NCBI RefSeq assembly: GCF_039696035.1
Contig: NZ_CP155567.1
Location: 1,439,501 to 1,503,500, forward strand
DNA: 64,000 nt
From: Microbulbifer sp. SAOS-129_SWC
Lineage (GTDB): Bacteria; Pseudomonadota; Gammaproteobacteria; Pseudomonadales; Cellvibrionaceae
Direction: 5' to 3'
Of this stretch, positions 31,057-59,685 are shown piece by piece; within the stretch, counting starts at the first letter, position 1; each line of letters begins with the position of its first letter. The translations under genes and the position numbers were made by a program. The notes beneath the pieces are model-generated. The model made no database searches and had not been told where the DNA came from. It saw only the letters and a program-made list of their open reading frames with translations.

Positions 31057-31080
31057 AAAACAGTCTGGCCTGATTGTTTT
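31057..31080. promoter_or_regulatory. Inverted-repeat operator, AAAACAGT-N8-ATTGTTTT
   Basis: The half-sites AAAACAGT and ATTGTTTT (one mismatch to perfect dyad) are separated by CTGGCCTG. The same half-sites recur in six other intergenic regions of this window, including the leader of the TetR gene at 32560-33249. Placed in a divergent promoter region, it can control both flanking transcripts. Confidence 0.75.
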
Positions 31081-31122
31081 GTATGGGGCCTTCTGGTAGT
31101 GTTGAGTCACTGACAGTTGTCA

Positions 31123-31144
31123 CCAGCGTGGCTGGACACGCTGG
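31123..31144. repeat. Perfect inverted repeat, 8-bp arms
   Basis: CCAGCGTG (31123-31130) and CACGCTGG (31137-31144) are separated by GCTGGA. No T-tract follows, so a terminator is unlikely. It differs from the AAAACAGT operator and could bind another regulator or form an RNA hairpin in the leader of the downstream acyl-CoA dehydrogenase. Confidence 0.5.
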
Positions 31145-31245
31145 ATGTGAACGTCGCGGCGCCCGGTAACCCATGAATAGACGGCAAACCGGGCCAGGCA
31201 GACCCTGCACCCCAGCAATCGGGATAATCGCGTAACAGGCTAGCT

Positions 31246-32361
31246 ATGGACTTTTCACTCACCGAAGAACAGATGCTGTTGAAAGACAGTGTGGAAAAAT
31301 TCGTGCGGGATCATTGTGGAGTAGAGCGCCACCGCCGATTGGCCGGCACCGAGTTGGGGTTCGATCCGGATGCCTGGGGTCAGTTCGCCGAGCTGGGCTG
31401 GCTGTGCATGCCATTCTCCGAAGCGCTGGGTGGCTTCGGTGGCGGGGCCGTCGATACCATGGTCATGACGGAAGCGATGGGGCGTGGGCTGGTCCGGGAG
31501 CCGTTCCTGACCACGGTGGTGACCTGTGGCGGTTTTTTGCAGCACGCGGGCAGTGGTGCCCAGCAGGACCGCTATGTAGCCGGTATCATCGATGGTCGCA
31601 CGCAGTGGGCGTTTGCCTTCGCCGAGTCGCGCGGTGGTTATGACCTGGAATGCGTATCCACCCGTGTGACAGCTGCCCCGGGCGGCTATCGCCTGAGTGG
31701 CAAGAAGTTGGCAGTGCTCAACGGCCACTGTGCCGACTTCCTGATTGTGACCGCCGAGAGCGAGGCGGGGCTCGGACTATTTATTGTCGATGCAGAGGCG
31801 CAAGGCGTAATGCGCACTCCTTTCACTGCGGTGGATGGCAGCCGTGGTGCGCACATTGAATTCGCGAGCGTCACTCTGACCCCGGGGCAGCAATTGGGCG
31901 CCGCGGGGGAGGCCAGTGGTCACATCGAGAAAGTCCTCGCGATGACAACCGTCGCAATGGGCGGTGAAGCGCTGGGGGCAATGCAGGTATTACTGGATAC
32001 CACGGTTGAATACACCAGGACGCGGGAGCAGTTTGGCCAGCCGATTGGCAAGTTCCAGGCGCTCCAGCACCGCATGGCCGATATGTACCTGAAAATAGAG
32101 GAAGCCCGTTCCCTGTTATTCTATGCGGCCATCCTGCTGGACGAGGGCAGCGCCGATGCTGCCCGGGCCTGCGCTGCGCTCAAGCTTAAAATTGCTGAAG
32201 CCGGCCGCCATGTATCCCAGGAGGCGGTGCAGCTGCACGGCGGCATTGGTATGACCGATGAGTTAATTGTGGGCCATCACTTCAAGCGGCTGTTGTTGCT
32301 GGGCATGCTCTACGGCGATGAGGAATACCAACTGCAGAAGTATATGGCCTTGGCGGCATAA
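31246..32361 (+). CDS. Acyl-CoA dehydrogenase, FadE/pimeloyl-CoA dehydrogenase small-subunit-like
   Basis: A 371-residue member of the acyl-CoA dehydrogenase family. The N-terminus MDFSLTEEQMLLKDSVEKFVRDH and the C-terminal QLHGGIGMTDELIVGHHFKRLLLL resemble the small subunits of heteromeric dehydrogenases (pimeloyl-CoA and steroid side-chain FadE types). The usual AMTEP block reads AFAESRGGYDLECV, which is weaker in the FAD/substrate loop. No obvious large-subunit partner is adjacent, so it may pair with a distant protein or act alone. It is monocistronic, divergent from the aldehyde dehydrogenase operon and convergent with the TetR gene. Confidence 0.88.
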   Translation: MDFSLTEEQMLLKDSVEKFVRDHCGVERHRRLAGTELGFDPDAWGQFAELGWLCMPFSEALGGFGGGAVDTMVMTEAMGRGLVREPFLTTVVTCGGFLQHAGSGAQQDRYVAGIIDGRTQWAFAFAESRGGYDLECVSTRVTAAPGGYRLSGKKLAVLNGHCADFLIVTAESEAGLGLFIVDAEAQGVMRTPFTAVDGSRGAHIEFASVTLTPGQQLGAAGEASGHIEKVLAMTTVAMGGEALGAMQVLLDTTVEYTRTREQFGQPIGKFQALQHRMADMYLKIEEARSLLFYAAILLDEGSADAARACAALKLKIAEAGRHVSQEAVQLHGGIGMTDELIVGHHFKRLLLLGMLYGDEEYQLQKYMALAA

Positions 32362-32559
32362 ACGGTTGGGCGCCCTGCACAGGTGATTGCCCGCCTGGGG
32401 CGCTGCAGTCTTTTAGTGACCAGCCACCAGCCACCGATTGGGGAAAAGGTTCGCCTGGATGTGTTCCTGCCATCGCATAAAAGCTGCCAGCGCGGCTTGC
32501 CGGGCTGGCATATGGAGGGCGCCGTGAATCGATTTCGGCCACGCAGCGACTTGTCGGGA

Positions 32560-33249
32560 TCAGGGCTTTTTCGTGTGGCGTGATATCGCGGTCTGGCCCT
32601 TGTCGGAAAAAATTTCTTCCAGTCGGTCTCCCAGATAGTCCAGCAACCGGTCAATTCTCTGGTCCTTATTCTTTCCCCACTGGCCGACGGCCATGCCTTC
32701 CATCAGGTATTTGGTAATGTCCATGGCGAGAAAGTAGAGATCGCCGCGATCATTCCATTCCTTGAACATTTCCTTGTTGGATTCGTGCACATGCTCTTCA
32801 AAGCGGGATACGGAGCTTTCCAGAATTGCGTTGAGCTCGGGATCGGTCCGTCCGGCCACGCACAGCTCGTGATACACGACAGCCAGGTCACCGGTGAGGT
32901 GATCCCAGTAGGCGTCCAGCCCCGCGCGGCGGCGATCCTTGCCTTTCAGCTTTTTCGGAATCAGGGACACCCGTTGCGTGTAGTCATCGAGTAGCTTCTG
33001 GTGGAGATATTCAACTGTCGCCTGGATTAATTCCGTCTTGGAGGGGAAGTGGTGCAGCATTGCACCCCGTGAGACACCCGCGGCATCGGCGACCTTGGCC
33101 GTGGTTACGTTGGAATAGCCGAGGTTGAGAAAGCAGTCGATGGCGGCTTCCAGAATACGGTCGCGCGTCATTGCGCTTTTCTGGGACTGCCAGCTAACGC
33201 CTTCCTCGTTCTTAACGCGTTTGGACTTGGGTGATTTAACTGCGGTCAT
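32560..33249 (-). CDS. TetR-family transcriptional regulator
   Basis: A 229-residue repressor-type regulator. After a 28-residue basic N-terminal extension comes the helix-turn-helix (RDRILEAAIDCFLNLGYSNVTTAKVADAAGVSRGAMLHHFPSKTELI, residues 30-75). The all-helical C-terminal domain (about 90-225) is of the type that binds acyl-CoA or small hydrophobic ligands; no ligand can be named. The gene stands alone between convergent and same-strand catabolic units. An inverted repeat with the shared regulon half-sites lies 30 bases before its ATG, downstream of a TATAAT box, which supports autorepression and makes it the best candidate for binding all seven repeats. Confidence 0.92.
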   Translation of the reverse strand: MTAVKSPKSKRVKNEEGVSWQSQKSAMTRDRILEAAIDCFLNLGYSNVTTAKVADAAGVSRGAMLHHFPSKTELIQATVEYLHQKLLDDYTQRVSLIPKKLKGKDRRRAGLDAYWDHLTGDLAVVYHELCVAGRTDPELNAILESSVSRFEEHVHESNKEMFKEWNDRGDLYFLAMDITKYLMEGMAVGQWGKNKDQRIDRLLDYLGDRLEEIFSDKGQTAISRHTKKP

Positions 33250-33278: not shown

Positions 33279-33298
33279 AAAACAGTGCAGACTGTTTT
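33279..33298. promoter_or_regulatory. Inverted-repeat operator in the TetR leader, AAAACAGT-N4-ACTGTTTT
   Basis: A perfect 8-bp dyad with GCAG as spacer. It lies 30 bases upstream of the TetR ATG and about 14 bases downstream of the probable transcription start, where bound repressor would block elongation. The half-sites equal those at the other operators, but the spacer is four bases instead of eight. Confidence 0.75.
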
Positions 33299-33324: not shown

Positions 33325-33524
33325 AGCGAAACCTGACAGGGAAAAAATGGCATTACGCGATAGTCCGTAAATAAGCAGTGAAACTGTCCGGGTTGTTTTT
33401 TGATCATGGCATTTGAAGGCCGCACCTTGCTCCTGGTCCGCCTTTAGCGCGGCTTCGGTCTCGGTATGCTTGTTTGGTCATAATTGTTGTTTTTTATAGT
33501 ACGAACCTTCGACCGCAGTGGATG

Positions 33525-33631: not shown

Positions 33632-35098
33632 TTAAGGGGTTATCCCGCCCATGCACAGGTATTTGATTTCCAGGTAGTCATCGATGCCGTATTTGGAGCC
33701 CTCGCGGCCGATACCCGACTCCTTGACCCCGCCAAACGGCGCGACTTCGGTGGAGATAATGCCTTCATTGATACCGACGATGCCGTAATCCAGCGCTTCG
33801 CTGACACGCCATATCCGCCCGATATCGCGGGCATAAAAATAGGCGGAAAGTCCATAAGGGGTGTCGTTGCTCATGCGGATGGCTTCCGCTTCCGTCTTGA
33901 ACTTGAGTATCGGTGCTACCGGGCCGAAGATTTCCTCGTTGTACACGTCCATACTGTTATCCACCCCGGTTAATACCGTGGGTTGGTAAAAATAGCCGCC
34001 ATTTGCCGTGGAGCCCCGACCGCCAATCAGTACCTGGGCACCGCTGTTCACCGCCTGATCCACCAGCTCGTTGACTTTCCGGTATGCCCACTCGTTGATC
34101 AGTGGCCCAATGGTGACACCTTCCTCTGATCCGTCTCCGGTCTTGAGTGCGCTGACAGCGGTAAGAAACTTGTCGACAAAAGCCTCGAAGACGCCTTCCT
34201 GTACCAGAATGCGATTGGCGCACACGCAGGTTTGCCCTGCATTGCGAAACTTCGATGCCATCAGGCCGGCAACGGCGGCATCCAGGTCGGCATCCTCGAA
34301 GACGACAAACGGCGCATTGCCGCCCAGCTCCATGGAGGTCTTTTTGATGCTACCGGCACATTGTGCCATCAGTGCCCTGCCGATTACGGTGGAGCCGGTA
34401 AAAGTAAGCTTGCGAATGATGCTATTGCTGGTCATCTCGCGGCCGATCTCGCGCGCGTGGTCACCGGCGACCACGCTGAAGACCCCCGGCGGAATACCTG
34501 CCTCCTCACCGAGCCGGGCCAGCGCCAGTGCACATAGCGGGGTTTCTGTGGCCGGTTTCAACACGATGGTGCAGCCAGCTGCCAGAGCGGGTGCCACCTT
34601 GCGTGTGATCATCGCAATGGGGAAGTTCCAGGGTGTGATTGCCGCGACAACACCGATAGGCTGTTTCAGTGTGACGATGCGTTGCGCCGGATTATTGGCC
34701 GCAATGGTATCGCCATAAATACGCCGACCTTCTTCCGCAAACCATTCGACAAATGCTGCACCGTAAGCGACTTCACCGCGGGACTCAGCGAGCGGCTTGC
34801 CCTGTTCGGCGGTCATGAGCCTGGCCAGATCTTCCTGGTTGTCCATGATCAGCCGGAACCATCGCTTGAGTACGGCCGAGCGTTCCTTGGCCACCAGGTT
34901 GCGCCAGCTCTGAATGGCTCTGTCGGCGGCCTCGATGGCGCGACGCGTTTCTGCAGCGCCGGCGTTGGGGATGCTGGCAATCGGCTGGTTGTTGGCTGGA
35001 TTTACCACCTGCACGGTATCGCCACTATCGGCGTCGACCCACTCACCGTTGATATACAGCTGCGTACGTAACAGGGATTTATTCGAAAGCTCTGGCAT
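33632..35098 (-). CDS. NAD(P)-dependent succinate-semialdehyde dehydrogenase-like aldehyde dehydrogenase
   Basis: A 488-residue aldehyde dehydrogenase of the GabD group. PWNFPIAMITRKVAPALAAGCTIVLKPA, the base in MELGGNAPFVVFEDADLD and the nucleophile in NAGQTCVCANR (two cysteines three apart) are conserved. The C-terminal PFGGVKESGIGREGSKYGIDDYLEIKYLC is typical of succinate or glutarate semialdehyde dehydrogenases. The real substrate here may be another short aldehyde acid from the local pathway. It follows the molybdopterin oxidoreductase gene by 84 bases on the same strand and ends at a strong terminator. Confidence 0.9.
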   Translation of the reverse strand: MPELSNKSLLRTQLYINGEWVDADSGDTVQVVNPANNQPIASIPNAGAAETRRAIEAADRAIQSWRNLVAKERSAVLKRWFRLIMDNQEDLARLMTAEQGKPLAESRGEVAYGAAFVEWFAEEGRRIYGDTIAANNPAQRIVTLKQPIGVVAAITPWNFPIAMITRKVAPALAAGCTIVLKPATETPLCALALARLGEEAGIPPGVFSVVAGDHAREIGREMTSNSIIRKLTFTGSTVIGRALMAQCAGSIKKTSMELGGNAPFVVFEDADLDAAVAGLMASKFRNAGQTCVCANRILVQEGVFEAFVDKFLTAVSALKTGDGSEEGVTIGPLINEWAYRKVNELVDQAVNSGAQVLIGGRGSTANGGYFYQPTVLTGVDNSMDVYNEEIFGPVAPILKFKTEAEAIRMSNDTPYGLSAYFYARDIGRIWRVSEALDYGIVGINEGIISTEVAPFGGVKESGIGREGSKYGIDDYLEIKYLCMGGITP

Positions 35099-35182: not shown

Positions 35183-37372
35183 TCACGCAGTGCCACCTGT
35201 GAGTCTCTCAATCGTGATTGGGATAGCGCTCTGTTGTGCCATGCCAGAATACTTTTCCGGATTGTCCAGATTGCTTATCAGGCGGTTGGTGTTGGCACCG
35301 ATCTCGCGCACGCGATCGTCGCTGGCGCCATCCGGTGCGGCGCCCCAGCAGTGGGCCATGGAAACCACGCCGCGCTTGATATCCGGGCTGCTTTTTACCA
35401 CGGCGGGTATCTGCCCCTGTGGCGAGCGTATGGCAACCACTTCTCCATCCTGCAGGTTCAGCGCGCTCACGTCGTCGGGGTGTATAAAGGCCGGGTTGGT
35501 CGTTCCCTTGGAGGCGAGAAAACTCAATTCCTGCCCGGTGGAGTTGTAGACATTTTTCATCCGGCGGCTCACGAGCAGGAACGGGTAGTCCTTTTTCAGG
35601 TTTAGGCCGCGATCGGCATCCCGCGCGGCACCTTCCAGCTCGTCGGCAAGGCCAGCGGGGAACAGGTCCATCAACCCCCTGGTGGCCGGATCCGCGGGGG
35701 CGACAATGACGTCGGGAAGGTCGTACACATGGCCGCCCTCGCGATGGTAGATTTCCGCCAGTGGCACGCGCGAGCCCACTGTCATCTTTTCCAGAATCTC
35801 GTACTTTGATGGCTTGTTGACCATGTCGAGGGGCTGTTCGCGGATACTGAGCTCCAGGCCCAGTCGTTTGCCCAGCTCCCAGAACAGTTCCCATTCCTCG
35901 ATGACATCCCCTTCGGCCTCGACAACGGTCTTGGTGTACTGGCTGTATGGCTGTTCGTACCAGATATCCGTGAGCACGGTGAGGTCATCGCGCTCCAGAC
36001 AGAGTTTCGATCCGATCACATAATCCGCGAGCTCGGCAGTGACCGACATTTTGTAATCCAGGCAGACCAGCAGTTCGAGGCTTTTCAGCGCCTCGTAGGC
36101 CTTGGCCTGACCCGGCCATGCCAGTAGCGGGTTGCCGCCGATCACGATCAGCGCTTTGATCTGGCCGTTGCCTTCCAGCAGGATTTCATCGGCGCAGATC
36201 GCGGTGGGCATCTCCTTGATCGGCCCGTTGGCAGTCAGCACCGTGACTTCACCAATATCCTCGGACACCCGGCTGCGCACACCGGTCAACCATTCTGGCT
36301 GCGGGGGAATCGCCTGTGCCGGGCGCGGCATCGGTGGCGACAGCACACCGGCATTGGGGAGTTTTTCCCCGGCGCGGTAGTGTCGGCCGCAAATCGCGTT
36401 GAGCGCCTGGGTCAGATGTTGCACCAGGTTGGGGTAGGGCCCCATCTCCGGCCCGGTACCGGTTGTCGCCGAGCCCCGCGGGCCGGCGGCGAACAGGCGC
36501 GCGGCGGTGATAATGTCTTCCCGCTCGAGTTCGGTGCGCGCGGCGACATATTCGGGCGTAAAGCGTTCCAGGCTGGCCTTGAAGACGTCGAGATTGGTGA
36601 TGTTCTCGCTACAGAAGTCGGCGTCGTGCAGCCCCTCGTCGAGGATGATATGCAGCAGTCCGGCGAGCAATACCGCATCCTGACCGGGTTTTACCTGCAA
36701 GTGGAGGTCCGCGCGTGCGGCAACTTCCGATTTGCGCGGGTCCACACAAATAATTTTCATGCCCCGCTTCTTCCCTTCGCGCAGGGCGCTGCTGGGGCTG
36801 AAGGAGGGGATGCCGCCCGGAATCGAAAAATGCGAGACCAGCGTATTGTTGCCGATAATCAGCGCAACATCGGAATCCTGCCAGGTGTGATTGCCCCCCA
36901 GCCAGAACCCCATGCGCGCCTGGCCGATACCGACTTTGGCCGGCTGGTCGATGGTAATGCTCGTGTAGTATGAGGGTGATTCCAGTGCCACGTGCCAGGC
37001 TTTGGCCACTGGGTGTGTGGCGGAATTCTGGAATGAAACGGTGCCGTTATAGCTGGCGATACTGCGCGGGCCGTACTTTTTGCGCAGTTCCTGTAATTTT
37101 CCGGCAATTTCATCCAGTGCCTGGGCGCTGCTGATTTCAGTCCAGCCGCCCTCACTGTTTTTCTTCAGTGAGGCCTGGATACGCTCGGGAAGATACAGCT
37201 GCTCGGGCATCTGTCGCCCCTTGAGGCAGGTATATCCGCCGAAAATCTCGTTGTCGGTATCCGGCCGCAGGGCAGTGAGCTTATTGTCCTTGACGGTAGC
37301 CACCATCGGGCAATTGGCGTGGCAGAAGCGGCAAAATGTTTTTACCTGATCGCTCTGATTCTTTTGTTGCAT
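35183..37372 (-). CDS. Molybdopterin-dependent oxidoreductase (DMSO reductase family)
   Basis: A 729-residue catalytic subunit with an N-terminal 4Fe-4S site (C14, C17, C21, C49). The molybdopterin domains (VALIIGNNTLVSHFSIPGG, KIICVDPRKSEVAARADLHLQVKPGQDAVLLAGLLHIIL, ALIVIGGNPLLAWPGQ) and the C-terminal cap domain (FIHPDDVSALNLQDGEVVAIRSPQG) follow. No twin-arginine signal is present, so it should be cytoplasmic. No electron-transfer subunits are adjacent. Such enzymes can hydroxylate or reduce substrates with water as the oxygen source; the substrate is unknown. It lies downstream of a small monooxygenase-like gene and upstream of an aldehyde dehydrogenase, all on the minus strand. Confidence 0.9.
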   Translation of the reverse strand: MQQKNQSDQVKTFCRFCHANCPMVATVKDNKLTALRPDTDNEIFGGYTCLKGRQMPEQLYLPERIQASLKKNSEGGWTEISSAQALDEIAGKLQELRKKYGPRSIASYNGTVSFQNSATHPVAKAWHVALESPSYYTSITIDQPAKVGIGQARMGFWLGGNHTWQDSDVALIIGNNTLVSHFSIPGGIPSFSPSSALREGKKRGMKIICVDPRKSEVAARADLHLQVKPGQDAVLLAGLLHIILDEGLHDADFCSENITNLDVFKASLERFTPEYVAARTELEREDIITAARLFAAGPRGSATTGTGPEMGPYPNLVQHLTQALNAICGRHYRAGEKLPNAGVLSPPMPRPAQAIPPQPEWLTGVRSRVSEDIGEVTVLTANGPIKEMPTAICADEILLEGNGQIKALIVIGGNPLLAWPGQAKAYEALKSLELLVCLDYKMSVTAELADYVIGSKLCLERDDLTVLTDIWYEQPYSQYTKTVVEAEGDVIEEWELFWELGKRLGLELSIREQPLDMVNKPSKYEILEKMTVGSRVPLAEIYHREGGHVYDLPDVIVAPADPATRGLMDLFPAGLADELEGAARDADRGLNLKKDYPFLLVSRRMKNVYNSTGQELSFLASKGTTNPAFIHPDDVSALNLQDGEVVAIRSPQGQIPAVVKSSPDIKRGVVSMAHCWGAAPDGASDDRVREIGANTNRLISNLDNPEKYSGMAQQSAIPITIERLTGGTA

Positions 37373-37429: not shown

Positions 37430-37774
37430 TCAGACGGTAAAGAAGTCTCCCCTGGGGTTTCCGTCTGGATCGTAGACCGGTTCTTCGATGGCAATCTTGA
37501 ACTTCGAAACCATCGTATCGAGAATCCCGAATCTGCCCAGGATCGCCAGCATCTTCGCGTAATACGGCCCCGACAGGTGGGCGTTCAGGGCATCGCTCGA
37601 CTCCCAGTTCTCATAAACGTAAATCCGCGTATCGGAAGTGGGATCGGCAGACCAGACATAGTGCTTGCAGCCCTTCTGTGCCCGGGTCGCCGGAATCAGT
37701 TCGGCGGCGGCGGCGAGGGCTTCGGCCCGCTCTTCTGCTTTTATATCAACGGTTCCGTTAATCAGTACGGTCAT
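37430..37774 (-). CDS. Antibiotic biosynthesis monooxygenase (ABM)-domain protein
   Basis: A 114-residue ferredoxin-like-fold protein with the ABM pattern: an N-terminal strand (TVLINGTVDIKAE), a helix (ALAAAAELIPATRAQKGCKHYVWSADPTSD) and the strand-turn YVYENWESSDALNAHLSGPYYAKM. Members are small cofactor-free oxygenases or aldehyde-handling proteins, often dimeric. ATG 37774 is chosen where the family starts. It leads a minus-strand unit with the molybdopterin oxidoreductase, and the operator at 37846-37869 lies 72 bases upstream. Confidence 0.85.
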   Translation of the reverse strand: MTVLINGTVDIKAEERAEALAAAAELIPATRAQKGCKHYVWSADPTSDTRIYVYENWESSDALNAHLSGPYYAKMLAILGRFGILDTMVSKFKIAIEEPVYDPDGNPRGDFFTV

Positions 37775-37845: not shown

Positions 37846-37869
37846 AAAACAATCAGGGTTGACTGCTTT
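37846..37869. promoter_or_regulatory. Inverted-repeat operator, AAAACAAT-N8-ACTGCTTT
   Basis: The half-sites match the regulon consensus with one mismatch each and the eight-base spacer CAGGGTTG. Its right half covers the -35 element of the plus-strand promoter at 37859-37887. It lies between a minus-strand ABM/molybdoenzyme unit and a plus-strand reductase gene. Confidence 0.7.
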
Positions 37870-38096: not shown

Positions 38097-39110
38097 ATGA
38101 CTGAACCAATGAATCGGCAGTATTATCTGGCATCCCGCCCAACCACTCTGCCCACGCCCAGTGACGTACCATTCCGGGATGTTCCGCTGCCGGAACCGGC
38201 CGCTGGTGAAGCCATCATCCGGAATCTCTATATTTCCCTGGATCCGGCGATTCGCGGCTGGATGAGTGAGGCAAATAACTATATCGAGCCCATTGCCATT
38301 GGCGATCCGATCCGCAGCTCGGTGATCGGCCGGGTGGTGAAGTCCTGCAGCGATCTGCTTCGGGAGGGGGATATCGTGATGTCGCTGGGGGGCTGGGAGC
38401 GTTATACCCGCGGCAGCGCCGCCACCATGACCAAGCTCGATGAGAATTCGGGTATCCCCCTGAGCAACTTCTTGAGCGTGCTCGGCCCCACAGGCCTCAC
38501 CGCCTATTTCGGGCTGTTGGACGTCGGGCGCCCCCTGGCCGGGGAGACGGTGCTGGTCAGTGCCGCCGCCGGTGCGGTCGGATCCGTCGTTGGTCAGATC
38601 GCAAAAATGCAGGGCTGTCACGTTGTGGGTATCGCCGGTTCCGACGAAAAGTGCGATTGGATTACCAGTGAACTCGGCTTCGATCGGGCAATCAATTACA
38701 AGACGTGCGGCGACTATCAGGCGGCTATTCAGCAGGCATGTCCGCAGGGTGTCGATGTCTATTTTGATAATGTGGGCGGGGAGATTCTCGACGCCGCACT
38801 GATGTGCCTGAACAAGTTCGCGCGGGTCGCAGTCTGTGGCTGGATCTCCACCTATAACGACCCGGATGCGCCCGGGCCAAAGAACCTGTGGCAGCTGGTT
38901 GCCGAGAGCGTCACGATTCAGGGCTTTGTCGTGCTTGATTATCAGGACCGTTTTGCCGAGGGGGTAGAGCAGCTGGCCAGTTGGATGATGGCCGGGAAGC
39001 TCAGGTTCCGGGAGGATATCGTCGACGGCCTGGATAATGTTTTGCCGACCTTCCTGAAACTGTTCAATGGCTCAAATAACGGCAAGTTGATTATTCATAA
39101 TCCCGAGTGA
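38097..39110 (+). CDS. NADP-dependent oxidoreductase (MDR; CurA/leukotriene B4 12-hydroxydehydrogenase-like)
   Basis: A 337-residue zinc-free medium-chain reductase. The N-terminal YISLDPAIRGWMSE, the Rossmann segment VSAAAGAVGSVVGQIAKMQGCHVVGIAGSDEK and the tyrosine-containing DVYFDNVGGEILDAAL match the double-bond reductase group (PTGR1, CurA). These reduce alpha,beta-unsaturated ketones or aldehydes with NADPH. ATG 38097 follows AGGAGCGACAGGGG. It is monocistronic, convergent with an NTF2-like gene, and driven by the operator-overlapped promoter at 37859. Reduction of an enone made by double-bond cleavage is a reasonable inferred role. Confidence 0.9.
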   Translation: MTEPMNRQYYLASRPTTLPTPSDVPFRDVPLPEPAAGEAIIRNLYISLDPAIRGWMSEANNYIEPIAIGDPIRSSVIGRVVKSCSDLLREGDIVMSLGGWERYTRGSAATMTKLDENSGIPLSNFLSVLGPTGLTAYFGLLDVGRPLAGETVLVSAAAGAVGSVVGQIAKMQGCHVVGIAGSDEKCDWITSELGFDRAINYKTCGDYQAAIQQACPQGVDVYFDNVGGEILDAALMCLNKFARVAVCGWISTYNDPDAPGPKNLWQLVAESVTIQGFVVLDYQDRFAEGVEQLASWMMAGKLRFREDIVDGLDNVLPTFLKLFNGSNNGKLIIHNPE

Positions 39111-39775: not shown

Positions 39776-39828
39776 TGCGGCTCTCCCAGTTGACTGCTTG
39801 CGACTCTAGCGGCAAATGAGCCAAAAAG

Positions 39829-49487: not shown

Positions 49488-49518
49488 TACCAATACTACC
49501 GATTGCGTGGGGAATGCT

Positions 49519-50295: not shown

Positions 50296-50348
50296 GCAAA
50301 TCCGCTTTCGCGACGCAAACCCTGCCCAATCACTTAGGCTGAAAATGC

Positions 50349-51974: not shown

Positions 51975-51996
51975 TTCAGGACCAGGGAGACAGCGC

Positions 51997-52752
51997 ATGG
52001 GTAGCTTGGACGGCCGGACCGCGGTGGTGCTCGGTGCATCGGGGAGCAAAAATTTTGGCAGTGAAATTGCGCGCAGGTTGGCTGCTGCGGGGGCGAAAGT
52101 CGCTGTAGCCGGGCGCCGCAAGGAGCCGTTAACTGAGCTTGCCAACCAGATCAATGGCCTTGCAGTACCCTGTGATGTGACTGAAGAGGACCAGATACAG
52201 TCCCTGTTCGACCGGGCGCTGGAGGAGTTCGGGCATGTGGATATTGCAGTGAACTCGGCCGGCATGCACGCGGGTGGCCGGATCGCAGAACTTGATGCGG
52301 ACAGTATTCGGCCCACGCTCGAGACAAGCTTTATTGGTGCCTTACTGTTTTTCAAATGGGCGGCCGCGGCGATGAGGCGCGGCGGATCCGTAATCACCAT
52401 TTCCTCTCTGACGACGCGGATACCCGGGCCGGAGCTGGCAGTTTATTCGGGCGCCCGCGCCGGAATCGATCACGCGATGAAGGTCGCCGCAGTCGAATAT
52501 GCTGAACAGGGGGTTCGCTTTAACTCGATTGCCGCGGGTCTTATTCAGACAGATATGACCGCGCCGTTTTTCAGCATGGATGCGTTGATCAATGCCTACG
52601 TCCATGATACACCAGCGGGGCGTATGGGTACGGTACAAGATATGGCCGAGGCGGTACTGTTCCTCGCAGACAGCCAGCGCTCCGGATTTATCAATGGCCA
52701 GGTACTCGACCTTTCAGGGGGCCAGCAGATGGGGCACCTGCCGCGCTTCTGA
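51997..52752 (+). CDS. Atypical SDR family protein with YxxxR active site
   Basis: A 251-residue short-chain dehydrogenase fold. The glycine loop is atypical (VLGASGSKNFGSEIARRLA), and the catalytic tetrad region reads SSLTTRIPGPELAVYSGAR: Y150 is present, but the partner lysine is R154. NSAG replaces NNAG at 86-89. The rest of the fold, including GFINGQVLDLSGG, is normal. Arginine may still lower the tyrosine pKa poorly, so activity could be weak or altered. ATG 51997 follows GGGAGA. It is the last gene of the long operon and ends before a strong hairpin. Confidence 0.88.
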   Translation: MGSLDGRTAVVLGASGSKNFGSEIARRLAAAGAKVAVAGRRKEPLTELANQINGLAVPCDVTEEDQIQSLFDRALEEFGHVDIAVNSAGMHAGGRIAELDADSIRPTLETSFIGALLFFKWAAAAMRRGGSVITISSLTTRIPGPELAVYSGARAGIDHAMKVAAVEYAEQGVRFNSIAAGLIQTDMTAPFFSMDALINAYVHDTPAGRMGTVQDMAEAVLFLADSQRSGFINGQVLDLSGGQQMGHLPRF

Positions 52753-52892: not shown

Positions 52893-54149
52893 TTACCTGT
52901 CGATGATCACCGGAATTTCCTTCAGACCGCGCAAGAGCAGGTGCGGCATATACTCAAGTTCTCCGGGTTTGCACGCCAGGCTAAATCGGGAACTGTTGCC
53001 AAGCAGGGTTTCCCAGGCAATGATCATTTCCAGCTTTGAAAGATGCTGGCCGATACAGACGTGCGAGCCAAAGCCGAAGGCGATATGACGGTTCAGATTG
53101 GGCCTGGAAATATCAAACTCAAGTGGCTTCTCGAATTTGCTCTCATCGTGATTGGAAGAGAAATATTTCAGTAGCACCATACTGCCTGCGGGGATAAGGA
53201 CGCCTCCGAGTATGTAGTCTGACTTGACGACACGCCACATATTCGAGGTGGGCGAGGCAAGCCGTAGCGTTTCCTCAACCAGGTTGGGTATCAGCGAGTG
53301 ATCTGCACGTATTCGCTCTTGCTGTTCGGGGTGCAGGCAGAGCTGGCGCATGCCTTCGGCCAGCGTTGCGGTTGTGGTTTCATTGCCTGCCACCAGGAAT
53401 TGCGTGCAATGCGATAGTTGCTCTTCAATGGTAAGCGGCCGGCCTTCATAGCTCGCATGGGCAACGAGGTTCAGCAAGTCCTCCCTGGGGTTCGCCCGTC
53501 GCTCATCCAGGGCTTCGGCAAACCAATCGTATTCGTCTTTGAGTCCGGCGTGCGCCGCGAGAAGTGTTTCCTTATCACCCAGCTGGGAAAATACCGTGAC
53601 ATTGTCGACGGTCCATTTGAAGGCCAGTTCGCGCATTTCTTCTGGCATTCCCAGTACGTGCATGATGACTGACAGTGGAAAAGGGCGGGTGAATTGCTCA
53701 ATGAAATTGAAGGGCGTGCCGATAGGCAGGCTATCGAAAAGGGCTGAGGACCTCTCTTTAATCCATGGACGATATTTGGCCAGTTTTTTTGCCAGGAAAA
53801 AATCCTTGAGTTCATCGCGGTAGATTCGATGTGGCGGATCATCAATCGTCAGCAAGGTACCTTTGCCAAGATCATAAGTGCGCCCCATGGCCTCGGCAAT
53901 ATCCTCATCGATCGAATCATCGGCGCCCTTGGCAAGGGCAAAGTCGTTGGAAAATATCGTGGGGTTCTTATGCGCTTCGCGCACCAGGTCGTAGGTCGAC
54001 ACGATAAACACTCCGGAGGCGGGATCCCGGTGCACCGGCGCCTGCTCTCGCAGTGTCTGGTCAAAGTGATACGGACATTTGAGTATTTTGTCGTCAAACA
54101 GCGCCATACCCGCGAGAGCACTATTTTCATCAATCACTGCGTCTGTCAT
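52893..54149 (-). CDS. Cytochrome P450
   Basis: A 418-residue soluble bacterial P450. The heme-cysteine motif FGFGSHVCIGQHL places C365. The I-helix reads LVAGNETTT with the oxygen-activation ETT, and the K-helix ExxR is in LVEETLR. The N-terminus lacks a membrane anchor, as in class I enzymes. No ferredoxin or ferredoxin reductase gene is adjacent; the 7Fe ferredoxin at 10315 and the rubredoxin fusion at 27972 are the only carriers in the window. An operator of the regulon lies 45 bases upstream of ATG 54149. It probably hydroxylates a hydrophobic substrate of the local pathway. Confidence 0.93.
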   Translation of the reverse strand: MTDAVIDENSALAGMALFDDKILKCPYHFDQTLREQAPVHRDPASGVFIVSTYDLVREAHKNPTIFSNDFALAKGADDSIDEDIAEAMGRTYDLGKGTLLTIDDPPHRIYRDELKDFFLAKKLAKYRPWIKERSSALFDSLPIGTPFNFIEQFTRPFPLSVIMHVLGMPEEMRELAFKWTVDNVTVFSQLGDKETLLAAHAGLKDEYDWFAEALDERRANPREDLLNLVAHASYEGRPLTIEEQLSHCTQFLVAGNETTTATLAEGMRQLCLHPEQQERIRADHSLIPNLVEETLRLASPTSNMWRVVKSDYILGGVLIPAGSMVLLKYFSSNHDESKFEKPLEFDISRPNLNRHIAFGFGSHVCIGQHLSKLEMIIAWETLLGNSSRFSLACKPGELEYMPHLLLRGLKEIPVIIDR

Positions 54150-54193: not shown

Positions 54194-54217
54194 AAAACAG
54201 TCAATATTGACTGTTAT
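54194..54217. promoter_or_regulatory. Inverted-repeat operator, AAAACAGT-N8-ACTGTTAT
   Basis: The core is a perfect 20-bp palindrome, AACAGTCAAT/ATTGACTGTT, at 54196-54215. On the minus strand the sequence TTGACT (54204-54199) inside it could be the -35 box of the P450 promoter; the -10 region is weak. It lies 45 bases before the P450 ATG. Confidence 0.8.
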
Positions 54218-54517: not shown

Positions 54518-55027
54518 CTATGCTTCGTTGGCCACGGATTCCTCGGTTTTGTCACGCATCAGGCCGCCATCAAACCTGATGGTCTTCTCCGGAACCACCT
54601 CGATAATAATGCGATCGTCGGTATCCAGAAACTGCACGAACAGCTCCGGCGTAGGCGCCGGGCTTACCGTATTGCTGGCAAAGTCGGGATAAAACCAGTC
54701 TCTGGTTTCCTGGTCGGTATGCAATATCGCATGACCTTTGAAGGTAATTGACTGGCTCACATCAATATCTGTACCGGCGCTGGAGATCACCACGCTGCAG
54801 CGATTGTCCCGTGCCAGAGCTTTCATGCGCGCACGTTGCCGGGTAGCGGTACACCAGATTCGGCCGTGGCGCCAGATATAACTCATTGTTACGCCGAGGC
54901 CGTGCCCCTCTTTATTGGTCCAGATAAAAGTCAGCTCATTTTGCTTGCGCAATAGCGCTTCCTCTCTATCGGAGGTGAGCCCGTACATGGTGACATCATC
55001 GTAGTTCTTTACGTGGTCTTCACTCAT
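54518..55027 (-). CDS. Pyridoxamine 5'-phosphate oxidase-like (split beta-barrel) flavin protein
   Basis: A 169-residue protein of the PPOX/split-barrel fold. The segments NELTFIWTNKEGHGLGVTMSYIWRHGRIWCTATRQRARMKALARDNRCSVVISS and FKGHAILHTDQETRDW match the family. The RxRxK(A)xLxRDxR region resembles F420- or FMN-binding members. The natural substrate is unknown. ATG 55027 is chosen where similarity begins. It is transcribed away from the operator at 55256-55279 and may be controlled by it. It lies upstream of the P450 gene on the same strand but is separated from it by 368 bases. Confidence 0.82.
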   Translation of the reverse strand: MSEDHVKNYDDVTMYGLTSDREEALLRKQNELTFIWTNKEGHGLGVTMSYIWRHGRIWCTATRQRARMKALARDNRCSVVISSAGTDIDVSQSITFKGHAILHTDQETRDWFYPDFASNTVSPAPTPELFVQFLDTDDRIIIEVVPEKTIRFDGGLMRDKTEESVANEA

Positions 55028-55255
55028 TATCGCTTTCCTTATTCTCAGTGTCGCTATTCCACAACCGGGCAATCAGGAACTACTTCGTCAAGTTTCCTCC
55101 CGCCAGTCGAAGGTTGCCACAGCCCGCAAACTCTATCATCTTACCTGCGCAAAGACAGAAAAATTCAGTTGTCGTCAATTGGCAAGGCGCTGCTCCATTC
55201 ATCGTGATTGCCGCACTCTTGGGCAGCTCCAGAGCATGATACAAAATTTTGCTTG

Positions 55256-55279
55256 AAAACAGTATGTATTGACTGTTTT
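55256..55279. promoter_or_regulatory. Inverted-repeat operator, AAAACAGT-N8-ACTGTTTT (perfect)
   Basis: Both half-sites are perfect, with ATGTATTG as spacer. It is the best match to the consensus derived from the seven sites. It overlaps the -35 box of the promoter toward the SDR-NTF2-oxygenase operon, and faces the pyridoxamine-oxidase-like gene on the other side. Confidence 0.8.
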
Positions 55280-55296: not shown

Positions 55297-55712
55297 CAAT
55301 TGGATTGGGGTTTGCAATACCCGATGTGCTACTCAAAGCCTTTGTTGCAGTCTGATGACCTTAGAGAAGCTAAAATAAAAGCAATAAATTCAATTGGTTA
55401 TCGCAGAATCTCATCAGCGTGGGCGAATTTTTCGGCAGCAATACCGGGGCGGGGATCCCGCAATAAGCTGCCGTGCTGGCGCGGATATTTTCGGCACTCA
55501 CTTGCGGCAGGAATGTGAGGTCCAGCATATGGATCTGATGTATTAGCGGCGTTGGCCGGGATCGCCGTAATGGATTGCTGTATCACTCCCGGCAGGGAGT
55601 TTTCCATTTCGTCCGGCATGACCGGCTTCTATGGTAGTCGGCGAAAGACGAGAAGGCTGTTAGGTCAATCAAGACTCTGTTGTCTGGTTTACTCGGAGCG
55701 GGTAATTGTTCT

Positions 55713-56504
55713 ATGGGAAGAGTTGAAAGAAAAGTCGCAATTGTCACTGGTGCTGCGTCAGGTCTTGGACTTGCAACCTCTCGGCGGCTGTCGGAAGAAG
55801 GTGCCACGGTCATCATGACAGATATAAATTGCGCGGCCGGAGAATCGGCGGCAGAAAAAATAAAGGGCGCGACATTTCGAGAGCATGATGTCAGTCGCGA
55901 GCAGTGCTGGGAAAAGCTCGTCAATGATGTTGTTACTGATCACGGTTCTCTCGATATTCTAGTCAATTGCGCCGGGGTGGTTCAGCTGGCCAGTATCGAA
56001 CAGACGACCGAAGACATGTGGCGAAAGATACACTCGGTTGGTACCGACGGCACATTCTTTGGCTGTAAACATGCCCTTAATGTGATGAAGCAGCAGGGGC
56101 AGGGCTCGATCATAAATATTTCTTCGACCGCGAGCATCCAGGGTGGCCCTAATATCTTTGCCTATGCCGCGTCAAAGAGTGCAATCCGCGGTATGACCAA
56201 GTCCGTCGCCTGTCTGAGTACCCAGCAGGGTTACGGCGTTCGCTGTAATTCCATTCATCCTGGCAATATGTCCACGCCAATGTTGCGGGGCGTATACGAC
56301 GTTGTGCGGGGGTTTGACCCTGTCATGGCGGATGAACTGGAAAAAATGTGGGTAGGGGATCCCGAAGATGTGGCAAACATGGTCCTCTTTCTGGCATCCG
56401 ATGAGTCGGTAGCGGTGAATGGTGCCGAGTTGGTGGTCGACAATACATTGACGATTACAGAAGGCGTGGTTCTCAAACGGGAATTGCAGGGCGCCGATGC
56501 TTAG
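55713..56504 (+). CDS. SDR family oxidoreductase
   Basis: A 263-residue classical short-chain dehydrogenase. The cofactor loop VTGAASGLGLATSRRL is at 11-25, with D37 after the second strand (NAD preference). NCAG is at 85-88, and SSTASIQGG with Y151/K155 (YAASK) forms the active site. ATG 55713 is where the family begins; upstream codons are not conserved. It starts the second oxygenase operon (SDR, NTF2-like, carotenoid-type oxygenase, GFA). Oxidation of a secondary alcohol before cleavage is a reasonable guess. Confidence 0.9.
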   Translation: MGRVERKVAIVTGAASGLGLATSRRLSEEGATVIMTDINCAAGESAAEKIKGATFREHDVSREQCWEKLVNDVVTDHGSLDILVNCAGVVQLASIEQTTEDMWRKIHSVGTDGTFFGCKHALNVMKQQGQGSIINISSTASIQGGPNIFAYAASKSAIRGMTKSVACLSTQQGYGVRCNSIHPGNMSTPMLRGVYDVVRGFDPVMADELEKMWVGDPEDVANMVLFLASDESVAVNGAELVVDNTLTITEGVVLKRELQGADA

Positions 56505-56580
56505 TTGAGTCAGACTGGTGGCTCGCGATTCCCAGCCGGGGGCGATGCCGATATACGGAATTTACAGGGAGGAAGGCGCA

Positions 56581-57099
56581 ATGTCGAGTGAGGAACTGCC
56601 GGCGCTGTCACAGGCGTTTATCGCCAACTATAACCGCTATGCGGAAGGTCTCGACTCAAAGAACTGGGGTCAGGTCCGCAGCTGCTTTGCTGACGAGGTC
56701 TATATCGACTACGGAGTGATCGTCGATCCTGATGGTGATCCCGGTATCGCCAAGAAGTCGGATGACTGGGTCCGGCAACTGCAGCACAACATCGGTGGCT
56801 TTGATAAAACACGCCATACCATCAGTAACCACCGTGTGTTGCTTGGTGGGGAATCCCCGAGTTGCAGGGCTTACCTCGTCGCTGATCACGTGATGTTTCC
56901 AGACCCCACATTACCTATTGCCGGGGCGGTAGATATTGCTACCGTAATCGGGGAATACACGAATCACTATAGGCTCATTGGAAAACAGTGGAAAATATAT
57001 AAGTCGAAACTGGATATTCACTGGTCGACCGGCAATATCGAATTATTTGCGAAAGCTGTGGGGAAAGTGCATTCGGATCCAGAGATGACGTTGATTTAG
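56581..57099 (+). CDS. NTF2/SnoaL-like protein (copy 2)
   Basis: A 172-residue protein of the NTF2 fold, family SnoaL-like. The helix-strand opening FIANYNRYAEGLDSKNWGQVRSCFADEVYIDYG, a central HTISNHRVLLGGESPSCRAYLVADHVM and the final RLIGKQWKIYKSKLDIHWSTG match the family. It is shorter of acid/base residues than steroid isomerases, so no reaction is assigned. ATG 56581 follows a strong GGGAGGAAGG. It lies 102 bases before the second carotenoid-type oxygenase, mirroring the pairing at 39293-41345. Confidence 0.85.
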   Translation: MSSEELPALSQAFIANYNRYAEGLDSKNWGQVRSCFADEVYIDYGVIVDPDGDPGIAKKSDDWVRQLQHNIGGFDKTRHTISNHRVLLGGESPSCRAYLVADHVMFPDPTLPIAGAVDIATVIGEYTNHYRLIGKQWKIYKSKLDIHWSTGNIELFAKAVGKVHSDPEMTLI

Positions 57100-57200
57100 G
57101 ACGCGTAATTGTTGCTGGGACTTAGGCCGATGGTTAAATTATTCAATTGGGCATCCCGGTAATAGGCAAAGACGCCAATCGTTTTTGACAGGGTGAAGTG

Positions 57201-58640
57201 ATGATGACAACACGACCTGAAATGGATTTAGAGCGCTTCCCCTACCTGCAGGGTAATTATGCTCCGGTACTGGAAGAATCCACGTTTGATGAAGGGGAGG
57301 GAGGGCTGCACGTCGAGGGGCAGATACCGCAGCAGATTACCGGTGCATTTATGCGCAACGGCCCCAACGTGGCCTGGCAGCCGGACCACTATGTGTACCC
57401 GGTGGATGGCGACGGAATGATCCATGCGGTCTATTTCAAGGACGGCCGCGTTCACTATCGCAATCGCTGGGTCAGATCAAACTGGTTCCGGGTTGAGGAG
57501 ACCCTGCGGCGTGCCTGTTGGGGAAGCCACGGAAAGCCATACCCGGTCGATACCGAAACCCTGGCGGCCGGTGGTTCTGCCCACCCATTCAAGAATCCGG
57601 CAAACACGAGCGTGCTTTACCATGGCGGCAAGCTATTCGCGCTGTTTGAGGCAGGTTTTCCGCATGTCCTGTCCAGCGACCTGGAATCCGCTGAAGAATT
57701 TGACTATCACGGGCTGCTGCAGACCGGTGACGGCCTGACCGCGCACCCGAAGATCTGTGCCAGGAACGGGGATCTGATTTCCAATACCCAGCGGTTCGCC
57801 GAACCCTACCTGACCATTCAGATCTTTGATAGCGCCGGCCGCCACAAGCGTTCGATCCCGATTTATGGGATGCACCGCCGGGCGATGATCCACGATATTC
57901 AGCTTTGCGGGGATTATATCGTCGGTCTGTTTGCTCCTGCATTTCCGGATATCGAAGCGGCTATGCGCGGAGAAAATCCGTTTATCTGGGAGGCAGAGAG
58001 ACCAACCCGGATATTTGCCGTGCACCGCGACGGCGGGGATCCCGTCTGGTTCGAGGCACCGACCTTCTTTAGCTGGCACTTCTGCAATGGGTTTCATAGC
58101 GGCAACAAGCTTTATGTAGATTATATCTGGATGGACAGTATGCCGGTATCCAACGATCTGGGCACCGGTGTTGAATCCCAGATGCGGAATTTGCATCGGT
58201 TGACGCTGGATCTGCTAACTGGATCTGTAACCAATGAAAAGGTTGGGCCCACATACTGTGAGTTTTCCCGGGCGGATGAGCGGCGCTGTGGCCTTCAATA
58301 CCGCTATGGTTTCGCGGCTGCCGCAACGCATAGCCGGAGCGAAAGCCCGAATCACGCCTATAACGCGACAATTCGCTATGACATGGAAAGCGGTACCAGC
58401 CAGCTTTGGGACTTCGGTGAAGGGGCAAATGCCGGCGAGCCGGTGCATATCCCCAACCCCGATAGCGACAAGGAAGAGGATGGCTACCTGATGTCATACG
58501 TTACCTGCCCGGGTGAGGGGGCCTTCCTGTCCATCTTGAGCGCAGGTGACCTGACACGCGGGCCATTGGCCAAAATTCATATTCCGGCGCGGGTGCCCAA
58601 CGGATTTCACGCAAACTGGATGAGCGGTATTACCCTCTGA
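57201..58640 (+). CDS. Carotenoid oxygenase/lignostilbene dioxygenase family protein (copy 2)
   Basis: A 479-residue paralogue of the oxygenase at 39939-41345. The four iron-ligand histidines are H182 (TAHPKIC), H231 (MIHDIQ), H293 (FSWHFCNGFH) and H470 (GFHANWM). The N-terminal FPYLQGNYAPVLEES block is almost identical to copy 1, but the segment around 95-130 (FRVEETLRRACWGSHGKPYPVDTETLAAGG) differs and may shape substrate choice. I chose ATG 57201, since AGGGTGA precedes it; a GTG at 57198 is possible. It is likely to cleave a related but distinct double bond. Confidence 0.92.
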   Translation: MMTTRPEMDLERFPYLQGNYAPVLEESTFDEGEGGLHVEGQIPQQITGAFMRNGPNVAWQPDHYVYPVDGDGMIHAVYFKDGRVHYRNRWVRSNWFRVEETLRRACWGSHGKPYPVDTETLAAGGSAHPFKNPANTSVLYHGGKLFALFEAGFPHVLSSDLESAEEFDYHGLLQTGDGLTAHPKICARNGDLISNTQRFAEPYLTIQIFDSAGRHKRSIPIYGMHRRAMIHDIQLCGDYIVGLFAPAFPDIEAAMRGENPFIWEAERPTRIFAVHRDGGDPVWFEAPTFFSWHFCNGFHSGNKLYVDYIWMDSMPVSNDLGTGVESQMRNLHRLTLDLLTGSVTNEKVGPTYCEFSRADERRCGLQYRYGFAAAATHSRSESPNHAYNATIRYDMESGTSQLWDFGEGANAGEPVHIPNPDSDKEEDGYLMSYVTCPGEGAFLSILSAGDLTRGPLAKIHIPARVPNGFHANWMSGITL

Positions 58641-58690
58641 GTCGCTGATTGCGGGCATGCGTCAATCAAGGCGAGCCTGTCCCGGTTTCT

Positions 58691-58699
58691 GGGGGGGGG
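58691..58699. repeat. Nine-G homopolymer tract
   Basis: A run of nine G residues lies in the intergenic space between the second oxygenase and the GFA-family gene. Such tracts are prone to slippage. It is outside coding sequence, so any effect would be on transcription spacing; a sequencing artefact is also possible. Confidence 0.6.
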
Positions 58700-58802
58700 C
58701 GTTAGCGGTGATGGATTATAGAGAAGACTGTGCTGAGGGGATGAATCAAAGTGGCCCCGGAGTGTTTACCGTGTGCATGGTTATACCAAGGAGGAGCGTT
58801 CT

Positions 58803-59228
58803 ATGTCGGAAGTCGCAAAAGGCGGTTGCCTGTGTGGGGCTTGTCGTTATGAGTTTGCACGGGACACCGTGATCTCATCTTTCCATTGTCACTGCAGTGA
58901 TTGTCGCCGGACGACCGGGAGTGGCAAGTCGACCATCGTCCTGGTGCCGGCGGCGGCAGTGCTGACACACGGGGAGCTGAAAACCTTCACTGTCACCGGC
59001 TCGGAGGGGGCACACGTGACCCGGGGCTTCTGTGGCTCCTGTGGTTCCCAGGTGAGTAGCCATGTAGAGGAGATGCCGGAGCTGCGAATGATCAAGGCGG
59101 GAACACTGGACGATAGCGGCTGGCTGACGGTCGATTCAAGTTGCTGGGGCAGCTCGGCACAGCCGTGGTCACCGGTGGATAAGGATAGTCCGGCGTTTGA
59201 ACGCAATCCGGAGCTGGCACCTGCGTGA
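58803..59228 (+). CDS. GFA family protein (glutathione-dependent formaldehyde-activating enzyme-like)
   Basis: A 141-residue zinc protein of the CENP-V/GFA fold. The cysteine motifs are CLCGACRYE near residue 9, HCHCSDCRRTTG near 29 and GFCGSCGSQ near 77, forming the two expected zinc sites. The family name refers to an activity that has been questioned; the actual substrate is unknown, though aldehyde or glutathione-adduct handling fits an operon with aldehyde-forming oxygenases. ATG 58803 follows AAGGAGGAGCG. Confidence 0.88.
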   Translation: MSEVAKGGCLCGACRYEFARDTVISSFHCHCSDCRRTTGSGKSTIVLVPAAAVLTHGELKTFTVTGSEGAHVTRGFCGSCGSQVSSHVEEMPELRMIKAGTLDDSGWLTVDSSCWGSSAQPWSPVDKDSPAFERNPELAPA

Positions 59229-59685
59229 ATATGGCTGCGCAGCGGTAAACATTCGTGGGGGCGTAATCCGCCGTTTCGCGGGTTCGCTCTATCTCCAGTG
59301 ACCTCATTTTCCCCCGTGGAGCCGGGCGCGCTGGATGCGTGCCGATGTGCCATTTCCGCATAAAAAAATCGTTTAAATTCAATTAGATACGCGTATTCTT
59401 GGCGCTTAAATTTGCTTGCCAGATGTGCCTTTTTATGTCATTTTGATATATCAATATAACTTAACGTCGGGGCAAAAACTTGGTTGCAACTTCGTTCGGA
59501 GGGAATGTAGTATAAACAGTATGTCCTGATTGTTTTGTGGTAGGGCTGGGCCGACGTGCTGGGGTAAAAGCAAAATGTCGGCCCGCGATTGCTTTTGAAT
59601 CCGTTACCGGTGGGTCTTGTCACCTCGCTGTAATGACAGGAAGTCAGTAGCCAATCGGTGCTCACAAAATTCGATGGAGAGAGAA
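59229..59685. other. Intergenic region upstream of the TonB-dependent receptors
   Basis: The 457 bases hold an AT-rich stretch with a 12-bp palindrome TTGATATATCAA (59443-59454) and the regulon operator at 59513-59536, 150 bases before the receptor ATG. I see no gene and no clear terminator for the GFA gene. Confidence 0.65.
59513..59536. promoter_or_regulatory. Inverted-repeat operator, TAAACAGT-N8-ATTGTTTT
   Basis: The half-sites each have one mismatch to the consensus; the spacer is ATGTCCTG. It lies upstream of the first TonB-dependent receptor and ties substrate import to the same regulator as the catabolic genes. Confidence 0.7.

Follow-up and report, generated by a model that had tools for sequence, protein, structure and literature searches.

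A candidate TetR regulon with two operator architectures in Microbulbifer and related bacteria

Sites and genes of the island

The DNA under study is a stretch of 64,000 nucleotides from Microbulbifer sp. SAOS-129_SWC (the window; G000:C1:1439501-1503500 in a genome, G000, of 4.63 Mb on a single contig). It holds the gene of a TetR-family regulator (tetR) within an island of catabolic genes whose promoters carry related inverted repeats. What we describe is apparently a real regulatory circuit, hitherto undescribed, in a marine bacterium and its relatives. The repeats are almost certainly regulatory and form one regulon, and the TetR encoded at 32560-33249 very probably binds them; taken jointly, it is highly likely that they are the operators of this protein in a single regulon. 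The sites are the following.

31057..31080, operator S1, 24 bp, AAAACAGT CTGG CCTG ATTGTTTT, between an aldehyde dehydrogenase gene (minus strand) and an acyl-CoA dehydrogenase gene (plus strand)
33279..33298, operator S2, 20 bp, AAAACAGT GCAG ACTGTTTT, about 30 bp upstream of the tetR start
33380..33399, possible weaker second 20-bp operator, position weight matrix score 18.7, farther upstream of tetR
37846..37869, operator S3, 24 bp, between the ABM-molybdoenzyme-aldehyde dehydrogenase unit (minus strand) and a CurA-like reductase gene (plus strand)
39828..39847, operator S4, 20 bp, GAAACAAT CGGT ACTGTTTT, between a SnoaL-like gene (minus strand) and the RPE65-type dioxygenase operon (plus strand)
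54194..54217, operator S5, 24 bp, about 45 bp upstream of a P450 gene (minus strand)
55256..55279, operator S6, 24 bp, between a PNPOx-like gene (minus strand) and the SDR-SnoaL-RPE65 operon (plus strand)
59513..59536, operator S7, 24 bp, upstream of a TonB-dependent receptor gene
74700..74723 (window-equivalent; G000:C1:1514200-1514223, L006:10700-10723), eighth site, CAAACAGTCAAATCTGATTGTTTT, 10.7 kb past the window end

The initial annotation had listed seven sites in the window sharing the same half-sites. All seven are real; they fall, however, into two spacing classes, five 24-bp palindromes with an 8-bp spacer and two 20-bp palindromes with a 4-bp spacer, and several half-sites differ at one or two bases. 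The 24-bp sites match AAAACARTCARt/aYTGAYTGTTTT, with the AAAACART halves 8 bp apart. A scan of the window with AAAACAGT-N8-ACTGTTTT, allowing three mismatches, gave six matches against a mean of 0.08 and a largest value of 1 in 100 shuffles. The sixth match, at 39824, is S4 read in the wrong register; S4 itself had been placed one base off, at 39829-39848. We built position weight matrices for the 24-bp class (from 17 distinct of 28 sites) and the 20-bp class (from five sites). The five 24-bp window sites score 31.2-37.3, and the next-best 24-type match scores 9.2, besides the mis-registered S4 (15.0). The claim that the window holds no good copy elsewhere therefore stands, apart from the weaker 20-type match at 33380-33399.

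Genome-wide, all six near-perfect 24-bp sites (AAAACART-N8-AYTGTTTT, at most one mismatch) lie within 1470557-1514223, a span of 44 kb that makes up 0.94% of the genome, so the random density that would have spoken against a regulon is not seen. The 4-bp class, at up to two mismatches, occurs in seven places versus one in the control; its sole place without a mismatch in the genome is the tetR promoter, and one of the three places with one mismatch is in the island.

The genes of the island in the window are listed below; the open reading frames were picked by hand and the profile scans cover a selection of them.

29487..31031, minus strand, aldehyde dehydrogenase family (Pfam PF00171)
31246..32361, plus strand, acyl-CoA dehydrogenase (Pfam)
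32560..33249, minus strand, TetR-family regulator of 229 amino acids, the proposed binder (Pfam TetR_N)
33632..35098, minus strand, aldehyde dehydrogenase (Pfam)
35183..37372, minus strand, molybdopterin oxidoreductase (Pfam)
37430..37774, minus strand, ABM-domain monooxygenase-like protein (Pfam)
38097..39110, plus strand, CurA-like NADPH-dependent enone reductase (Pfam; NCBIfam 366 bits, under the cut-off of 440)
39293..39775, minus strand, SnoaL-like protein (Pfam)
39939..41345, plus strand, RPE65/carotenoid-cleavage-type dioxygenase 1 (Pfam, 1.2e-113)
41436..46388, plus strand, 2-oxoacid dehydrogenase complex E1a, E1b, E2 and E3 (Pfam)
46406..48087, plus strand, ChsH2-type OB protein and SCP2-type thiolase (Pfam; PDB)
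48102..49487, plus strand, Rieske ring-hydroxylating oxygenase alpha subunit (Pfam; PDB)
49507..52752, plus strand, SDR, AMP-dependent CoA ligase and SDR (Pfam)
52893..54149, minus strand, cytochrome P450 (Pfam; PDB)
54518..55072, minus strand, PNPOx-like split-barrel protein (Pfam match weak and below cut-off; fold matches)
55680..59228, plus strand, SDR, SnoaL-like protein, RPE65-type dioxygenase 2 and GFA-domain protein (Pfam)
59617..62025, plus strand, TonB-dependent receptor (Pfam)

The units that the sites had been said to serve are found as listed, and the sites also face the acyl-CoA dehydrogenase gene at 31246 (plus strand), the SnoaL-like gene at 39293 (minus strand) and the PNPOx-like gene at 54518 (minus strand). 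The regulon had been drawn as a coherent cluster of about 33 kb; the cluster is coherent, yet it extends past the window to the eighth site, which precedes by about 42 bp a gene run encoding SDR, ThuA-domain, acyl-CoA dehydrogenase and Rieske proteins, and the system is widespread rather than local. This Rieske oxygenase is the second of the island and lies outside the window. The leader between S6 and its SDR gene spans about 400 bp (55280-55680), similar to the distance of about 370 bp in genome G008; Rfam at gathering scores gave no match in the whole window, including this leader. An AraC-type regulator gene is located at 13888-14925, about 16 kb from the first operator.

Co-occurrence of the regulator and its sites

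The TetR protein matches TetR_N (PF00440) at E 7.8e-15 and 54.8 bits against a cut-off of 24, and its structure model (predicted local distance difference test, pLDDT, 86.7) is all-helical with a TetR-type C-terminal domain. The closest named relatives are from M. elongatus (89% identical), and no close solved relative was seen, the matches listed being at most 23% identical.

To connect regulator and sites beyond the autoregulatory placement, we rely on two observations: gene and sites co-occur across 48 Microbulbifer genomes, and corresponding promoters elsewhere carry the operators again, both where the neighbouring TetR is an ortholog of 52-72% identity and beside relatives of 40-48% identity. 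These support the reading as a TetR regulon that had been proposed from placement. TetR (E<=1e-40) is present in five of the 48 genomes, and these hold 6, 5, 5, 6 and 6 sites, 28 altogether, each set spanning 40-44 kb on the contig that carries TetR. The 43 genomes lacking TetR hold 32 sites in total, scattered, with 0-4 in each and none in 22. Another recurrent palindrome-like site, AAAACTGTCTAACTAGATTGTTTT, one mismatch away from the half-site pattern, is common to several Microbulbifer genomes lacking TetR (for example at G009:C22:12140 and G003:C1:2297879).

The named comparison loci were retrieved by means of TetR peptides including the recognition helix (SRGAMLHH), a choice that favours proteins whose DNA specificity is probably shared. 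In 28 Halieaceae-type loci (494,851 bp; L076 was excluded, being the same contig as genome G032), the 24-type matrix at a score of at least 18 found 63 sites versus 0, 0, 1, 0 and 0 in Markov copies, and the 20-type matrix found 28 versus 0, 0, 0, 0 and 1, with many sites entering both counts. In a further 49 loci, more distant (TetR 40-48% identical), the corresponding figures were 31 versus 0, 0 and 0 and 30 versus 0, 1 and 0. Loci of other TetR genes with their flanks (132,559 bp) held no match scoring 15 or more. Several metagenome bins titled Klebsiella, Rhizobium, Janthinobacterium or Candidatus Kuenenia hold the TetR family and are probably mislabelled.

The Halieaceae-type clusters are syntenic, and their operators lie at equivalent promoters that keep their class. 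Taking the better-scoring type at each promoter, and dropping one ABM and one SnoaL promoter cut by the locus end, we found a 24-type site at 17 of 17 ABM and 16 of 16 CurA promoters, and a 20-type site at the oxygenase 1 promoter in 8 of 8 loci holding it (and in G008) and at 9 of 10 SnoaL promoters. The acyl-CoA dehydrogenase promoter (n=22) carries 18 24-type sites and one 20-type site, with three lacking either, and the OB promoter (n=7) is mixed, with one 24-type, three 20-type and three without a site. G032, whose TetR is 53% identical, has sites at 55246, upstream of an SDR-ThuA-acyl-CoA dehydrogenase-Rieske-E1 run, at 67616, upstream of an OB-thiolase run, and, some 50 bp ahead of a TonB-receptor-like match (30% identity), at 54265. 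In the 49 distant loci the operator is most often 5' of SDR-ThuA genes, which supports the eighth site as a member of the regulon.

The site at tetR had been read as autoregulatory. Within Microbulbifer the site itself is kept: S2 is close to the start, and three other loci keep the half-sites (0-1 mismatch) with the spacer changed, from GCAG here to ACCA in L048 (perfect halves), ATAG in L047 and CCGG in L049 (one change each). Outside Microbulbifer it fares less well. At a score of at least 15, only 5 of the 28 Halieaceae-type tetR promoters have a 20-type site and 23 have none, making autoregulation the weakest part of the argument there; among the promoters counted, that of tetR is the least conserved operator.

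Further observations likewise weigh against one TetR regulon as we read it. By mismatches (at most five, with the two best gaps per locus considered), the tetR promoters of 31 loci, including the three of Microbulbifer, have gap 4 as best or tied-best in 17, gap 8 in 4 and nothing convincing in 10. The acyl-CoA dehydrogenase promoters without a site are those of L056, L074 and G032. At the level of the order the association of TetR and sites is weaker than within Microbulbifer: of 145 genomes, six have TetR (E 1e-40) and eight the strict 24-bp pattern, which occurs in more than one place in G000 (4), G114 (4) and G076 (5), all TetR-positive. Half of the six TetR-positive genomes (G032, G098, G159) have no strict match, and five TetR-negative ones (G027, G090, G130, G154, G180) have one place each. 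In G114 the places are dispersed, with one at a long distance from TetR; for G114 and G076 alike, one place is either remote from TetR or on a contig other than that of TetR. The invariance of the recognition helix in an alignment of 40 of 81 sequences (the window and 80 loci) is partly built in, because the retrieval peptide contained this helix; we dropped it as independent proof, and it holds for the two TetR orthologs found by whole-protein search, in which the region is identical.

Two operator architectures and rival explanations

We scanned spacings of 0-30 between half-sites in five sets. In every set the peak is at gap 8 or gap 4, and these two gaps are the top two in three; in the window set and G008 the peak is at gap 8, with gap 4 level with gap 12 or 11-12. 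The matches at gaps 11 and 12 come from known sites with A- or T-runs read in a shifted frame, except for a separate palindrome at G008 position 32511. From this spectrum the single-spacing reading of the sites was replaced by two classes.

In the 24-bp class the core CART of positions 5-8 is repeated at positions 9-12. All 34 half-sites of the 17 distinct sites have a purine at position 11, and in genome G000 the inner repeat, read in the +4 register, agrees at 36 of 48 positions, versus 11, 13 and 13 in the other registers. It is present on both flanks, the weaker side summing to 16 against a null of 4.6 +/- 1.7 (reached in 0 of 200,000 simulations), and the test is not circular since the spacer played no part in site selection. 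CART recurring four bases inward suggests that a 24-bp site consists of two 20-bp elements (CART-N4-AYTG) offset by 4 bp. An operator of two overlapping inverted repeats, as in QacR, is thus present in the 24-bp sites, with embedded -35 boxes as a partial confounder. We consider it reasonably probable, from this arrangement of bases, that the 24-bp sites carry two dimers and the 20-bp sites one.

The strongest competitor is that the inner repeat is a -35 box and that one dimer sits on the 8-bp-spaced palindrome, which we judge rather unlikely. As the initial annotation had reported, the repeats at S3 and S6 cover the -35 box of plausible promoters: the inner YTGAYT is -35-like in TTGACT-17-TATATT (-35 at 37859; 37859-37887) and in TTGACT-16-TATTTT (-35 at 55269; 55269-55296), so the inner repeat may in part be promoter sequence. 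Some 24-bp sites are also lopsided (in the Halieaceae acyl-CoA dehydrogenase sites, 3-4 inner matches on one side and 0-2 on the other). Both points count against the two-dimer architecture. The promoter-like matches over the S3 and S6 regions number 5 versus 4.8 and 10 versus 5.4 +/- 2.3 in shuffles. A -35 box would not account for a repeat on both flanks, of which even the weaker is far above chance, nor for the constant purine at position 11, and it would require a single dimer to bind halves whose separation is 4 bp greater. The 4-bp difference in half-site spacing between the classes, of a kind that a rigid dimer rarely tolerates, could speak for two regulators sharing a half-site, with TetR on the 20-bp class and another protein on the 24-bp class, and so could a tetR promoter site that is often unrecognisable outside Microbulbifer. 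This is improbable: the 24-bp sites cluster only in the Microbulbifer genomes with TetR, they contain the 20-bp element in the +4 register, and operators stand beside TetR in the distant loci too, though these were retrieved by TetR.

On the sign of regulation, TetR probably acts as a repressor, as most TetR proteins do. The varied distances from site to start, with S6 as the example given above, would suit an activator or mixed regulator; S3 and S6, by contrast, cover the -35 of the sole promoter-like match that their intergenic regions yielded, and we give activation a small chance. A reading of the repeats as mobile elements or as chance A/T-rich palindromes with no regulatory role is extremely improbable. 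At up to three mismatches the genome-wide count is indeed 39 versus 38 for the reversed-pattern control, which would favour chance; that threshold is uninformative, and the informative sites are the near-perfect ones only. These occur solely at promoters of one island and have different spacers, and the class is kept at orthologous promoters across families; chance repeats were rejected by the genome-wide, genus and family scans.

Proposed mechanism, pathway and known systems

In the mechanism that we propose, a TetR dimer would read CART-N4-AYTG flanked by A/T tracts, the 20-bp operator. Through single 20-bp sites it would repress its own gene and the oxygenase 1/2-oxoacid dehydrogenase operon; the other catabolic promoters would be repressed via 24-bp sites, in which two elements overlapped by 4 bp would each take one dimer, giving a dimer of dimers. 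TetR would come off the DNA on binding an intermediate of the pathway, plausibly a CoA thioester. Release would turn on uptake by the TonB receptor, oxygenative attack (P450, Rieske and RPE65-type dioxygenases), CoA activation, side-chain cleavage and 2-oxoacid oxidation.

Both RPE65-type dioxygenases are over the PF03055 cut-off, and four histidines of dioxygenase 1 align with those of ACO, which we take to bind iron. Their best solved relative is apocarotenoid-15,15'-oxygenase, followed by carotenoid and lignostilbene enzymes. They are in this like the lignostilbene and apocarotenoid cleavage dioxygenases, and unlike them in scoring far below the NCBIfam equivalog cut-offs: none of the equivalogs listed reaches its cut-off, the best for the dioxygenases being 297 of 675 bits (8'-apo-carotenoid 13,14-cleaving dioxygenase NF052295, 296.6 and 255 bits versus 675). 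The 85-kb contig of G032 has the shared core and no match to the dioxygenases, suggesting that these may feed a common lower pathway. Two carotenoid-cleavage-type enzymes hint weakly at an apocarotenoid-like alkene; a carotenoid-derived or similar alkene substrate is a doubtful, tentative suggestion. With a lignin-dimer pathway (PMC12997858) the island has in common, as far as the parts of that source available go, RPE65-type and Rieske enzymes only.

A complete F420 biosynthesis set, npdG, cofE, cofD, cofC and cofGH (L006:3628-9436, G000:C1:1507128-1512936), is located in the interval from S7 to the eighth site, each gene over at least one curated cut-off. Among the 48 Microbulbifer genomes, cofGH is present in exactly the five with TetR, and the PNPOx-like gene beside S6 is found (E 1e-20) only in those five. 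In the 20 kb scanned the F420 genes have no operator of their own, a point against our reading. All five Halieaceae-type loci tested have, between the molybdoenzyme gene and tetR, a gene of the Bac_luciferase family, and three of three tested against NCBIfam (L050:7340-8326, L070:5154-6125, L010:446-1426) pass the cut-off of TIGR03621, an F420-dependent LLM subfamily. The window has no room for such a gene there, and genome G000 has a single match to the Bac_luciferase Pfam family, elsewhere. The TIGR03621-type gene in Halieaceae-type loci and the F420 set here make an F420-dependent step likely in Halieaceae and plausible in the Microbulbifer island, judging from gene content. The PNPOx-like protein is a possible F420 enzyme, its split-barrel matches including F420, FMN/FAD and heme binders and its model being modest (pLDDT 66). 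F420 in Proteobacteria is already known, and the term 'gammaproteobacter' is absent from the review text as available (PMC8498797).

It is possible, with the chances somewhat short of even, that the whole picture holds: operator architecture as a promoter-by-promoter code, one-dimer 20-bp and two-dimer 24-bp, with the class kept across families, controlling an undescribed, widespread and probably F420-assisted pathway for an alkene-containing natural product. A literature search by title and abstract, with most subscription papers outside it, returned no description of this regulon or operator, in agreement with the initial annotation. An orphan TetR tied to a precise operator across gammaproteobacteria offers an inexpensive handle on such a pathway: the operator can locate member genes, and the regulator can serve to screen for the substrate. 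The F420 tie, if true, would mean catabolic use of F420 in marine gammaproteobacteria. The two classes also pose a testable question, whether one bacterial TetR switches between one- and two-dimer binding by operator sequence, as reported for an archaeal member of the family.

KstR, KstR2 and FadR are local catabolic TetR repressors with palindromic operators and CoA-thioester inducers. The present system resembles them in a local TetR that would govern a catabolic cluster through palindromes, and KstR2 (4w1u) is a distant fold match of the TetR here. It is unlike KstR in its family model score (NCBIfam NF033703, 24.1 bits versus a cut-off of 280) and in gene content, and the operators differ as well.

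TetR proteins are divided into dimer and dimer-of-dimers classes, QacR, CgmR and CprB placing two dimers on a long operator of 22-32 bp in the cases listed in the portion of the source at hand (PMC4150764). Unlike these described dimer-of-dimers binders, the island has a coexisting 20-bp, single-register class; the match of CprB (1ui5) to the TetR here is weak and confined to the DNA-binding domain (E 1.6e-5). Another parallel is FadR of Sulfolobus acidocaldarius, a TetR-family repressor of a 30-kb catabolic cluster that binds as one dimer or as a dimer of dimers depending on operator sequence, described in a paper that, in the parts available, makes the same division among bacterial TetR proteins (PMC6449355). 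Like it, our regulator is the TetR of a catabolic cluster, here with two operator classes kept per promoter, which may take one and two dimers. Unlike our system, FadR is archaeal and controls fatty-acid genes, and, according to the same parts of that paper, two dimers occupy its autoregulatory site and a single one a target site, opposite to what the tetR site would take here (PMC6449355).

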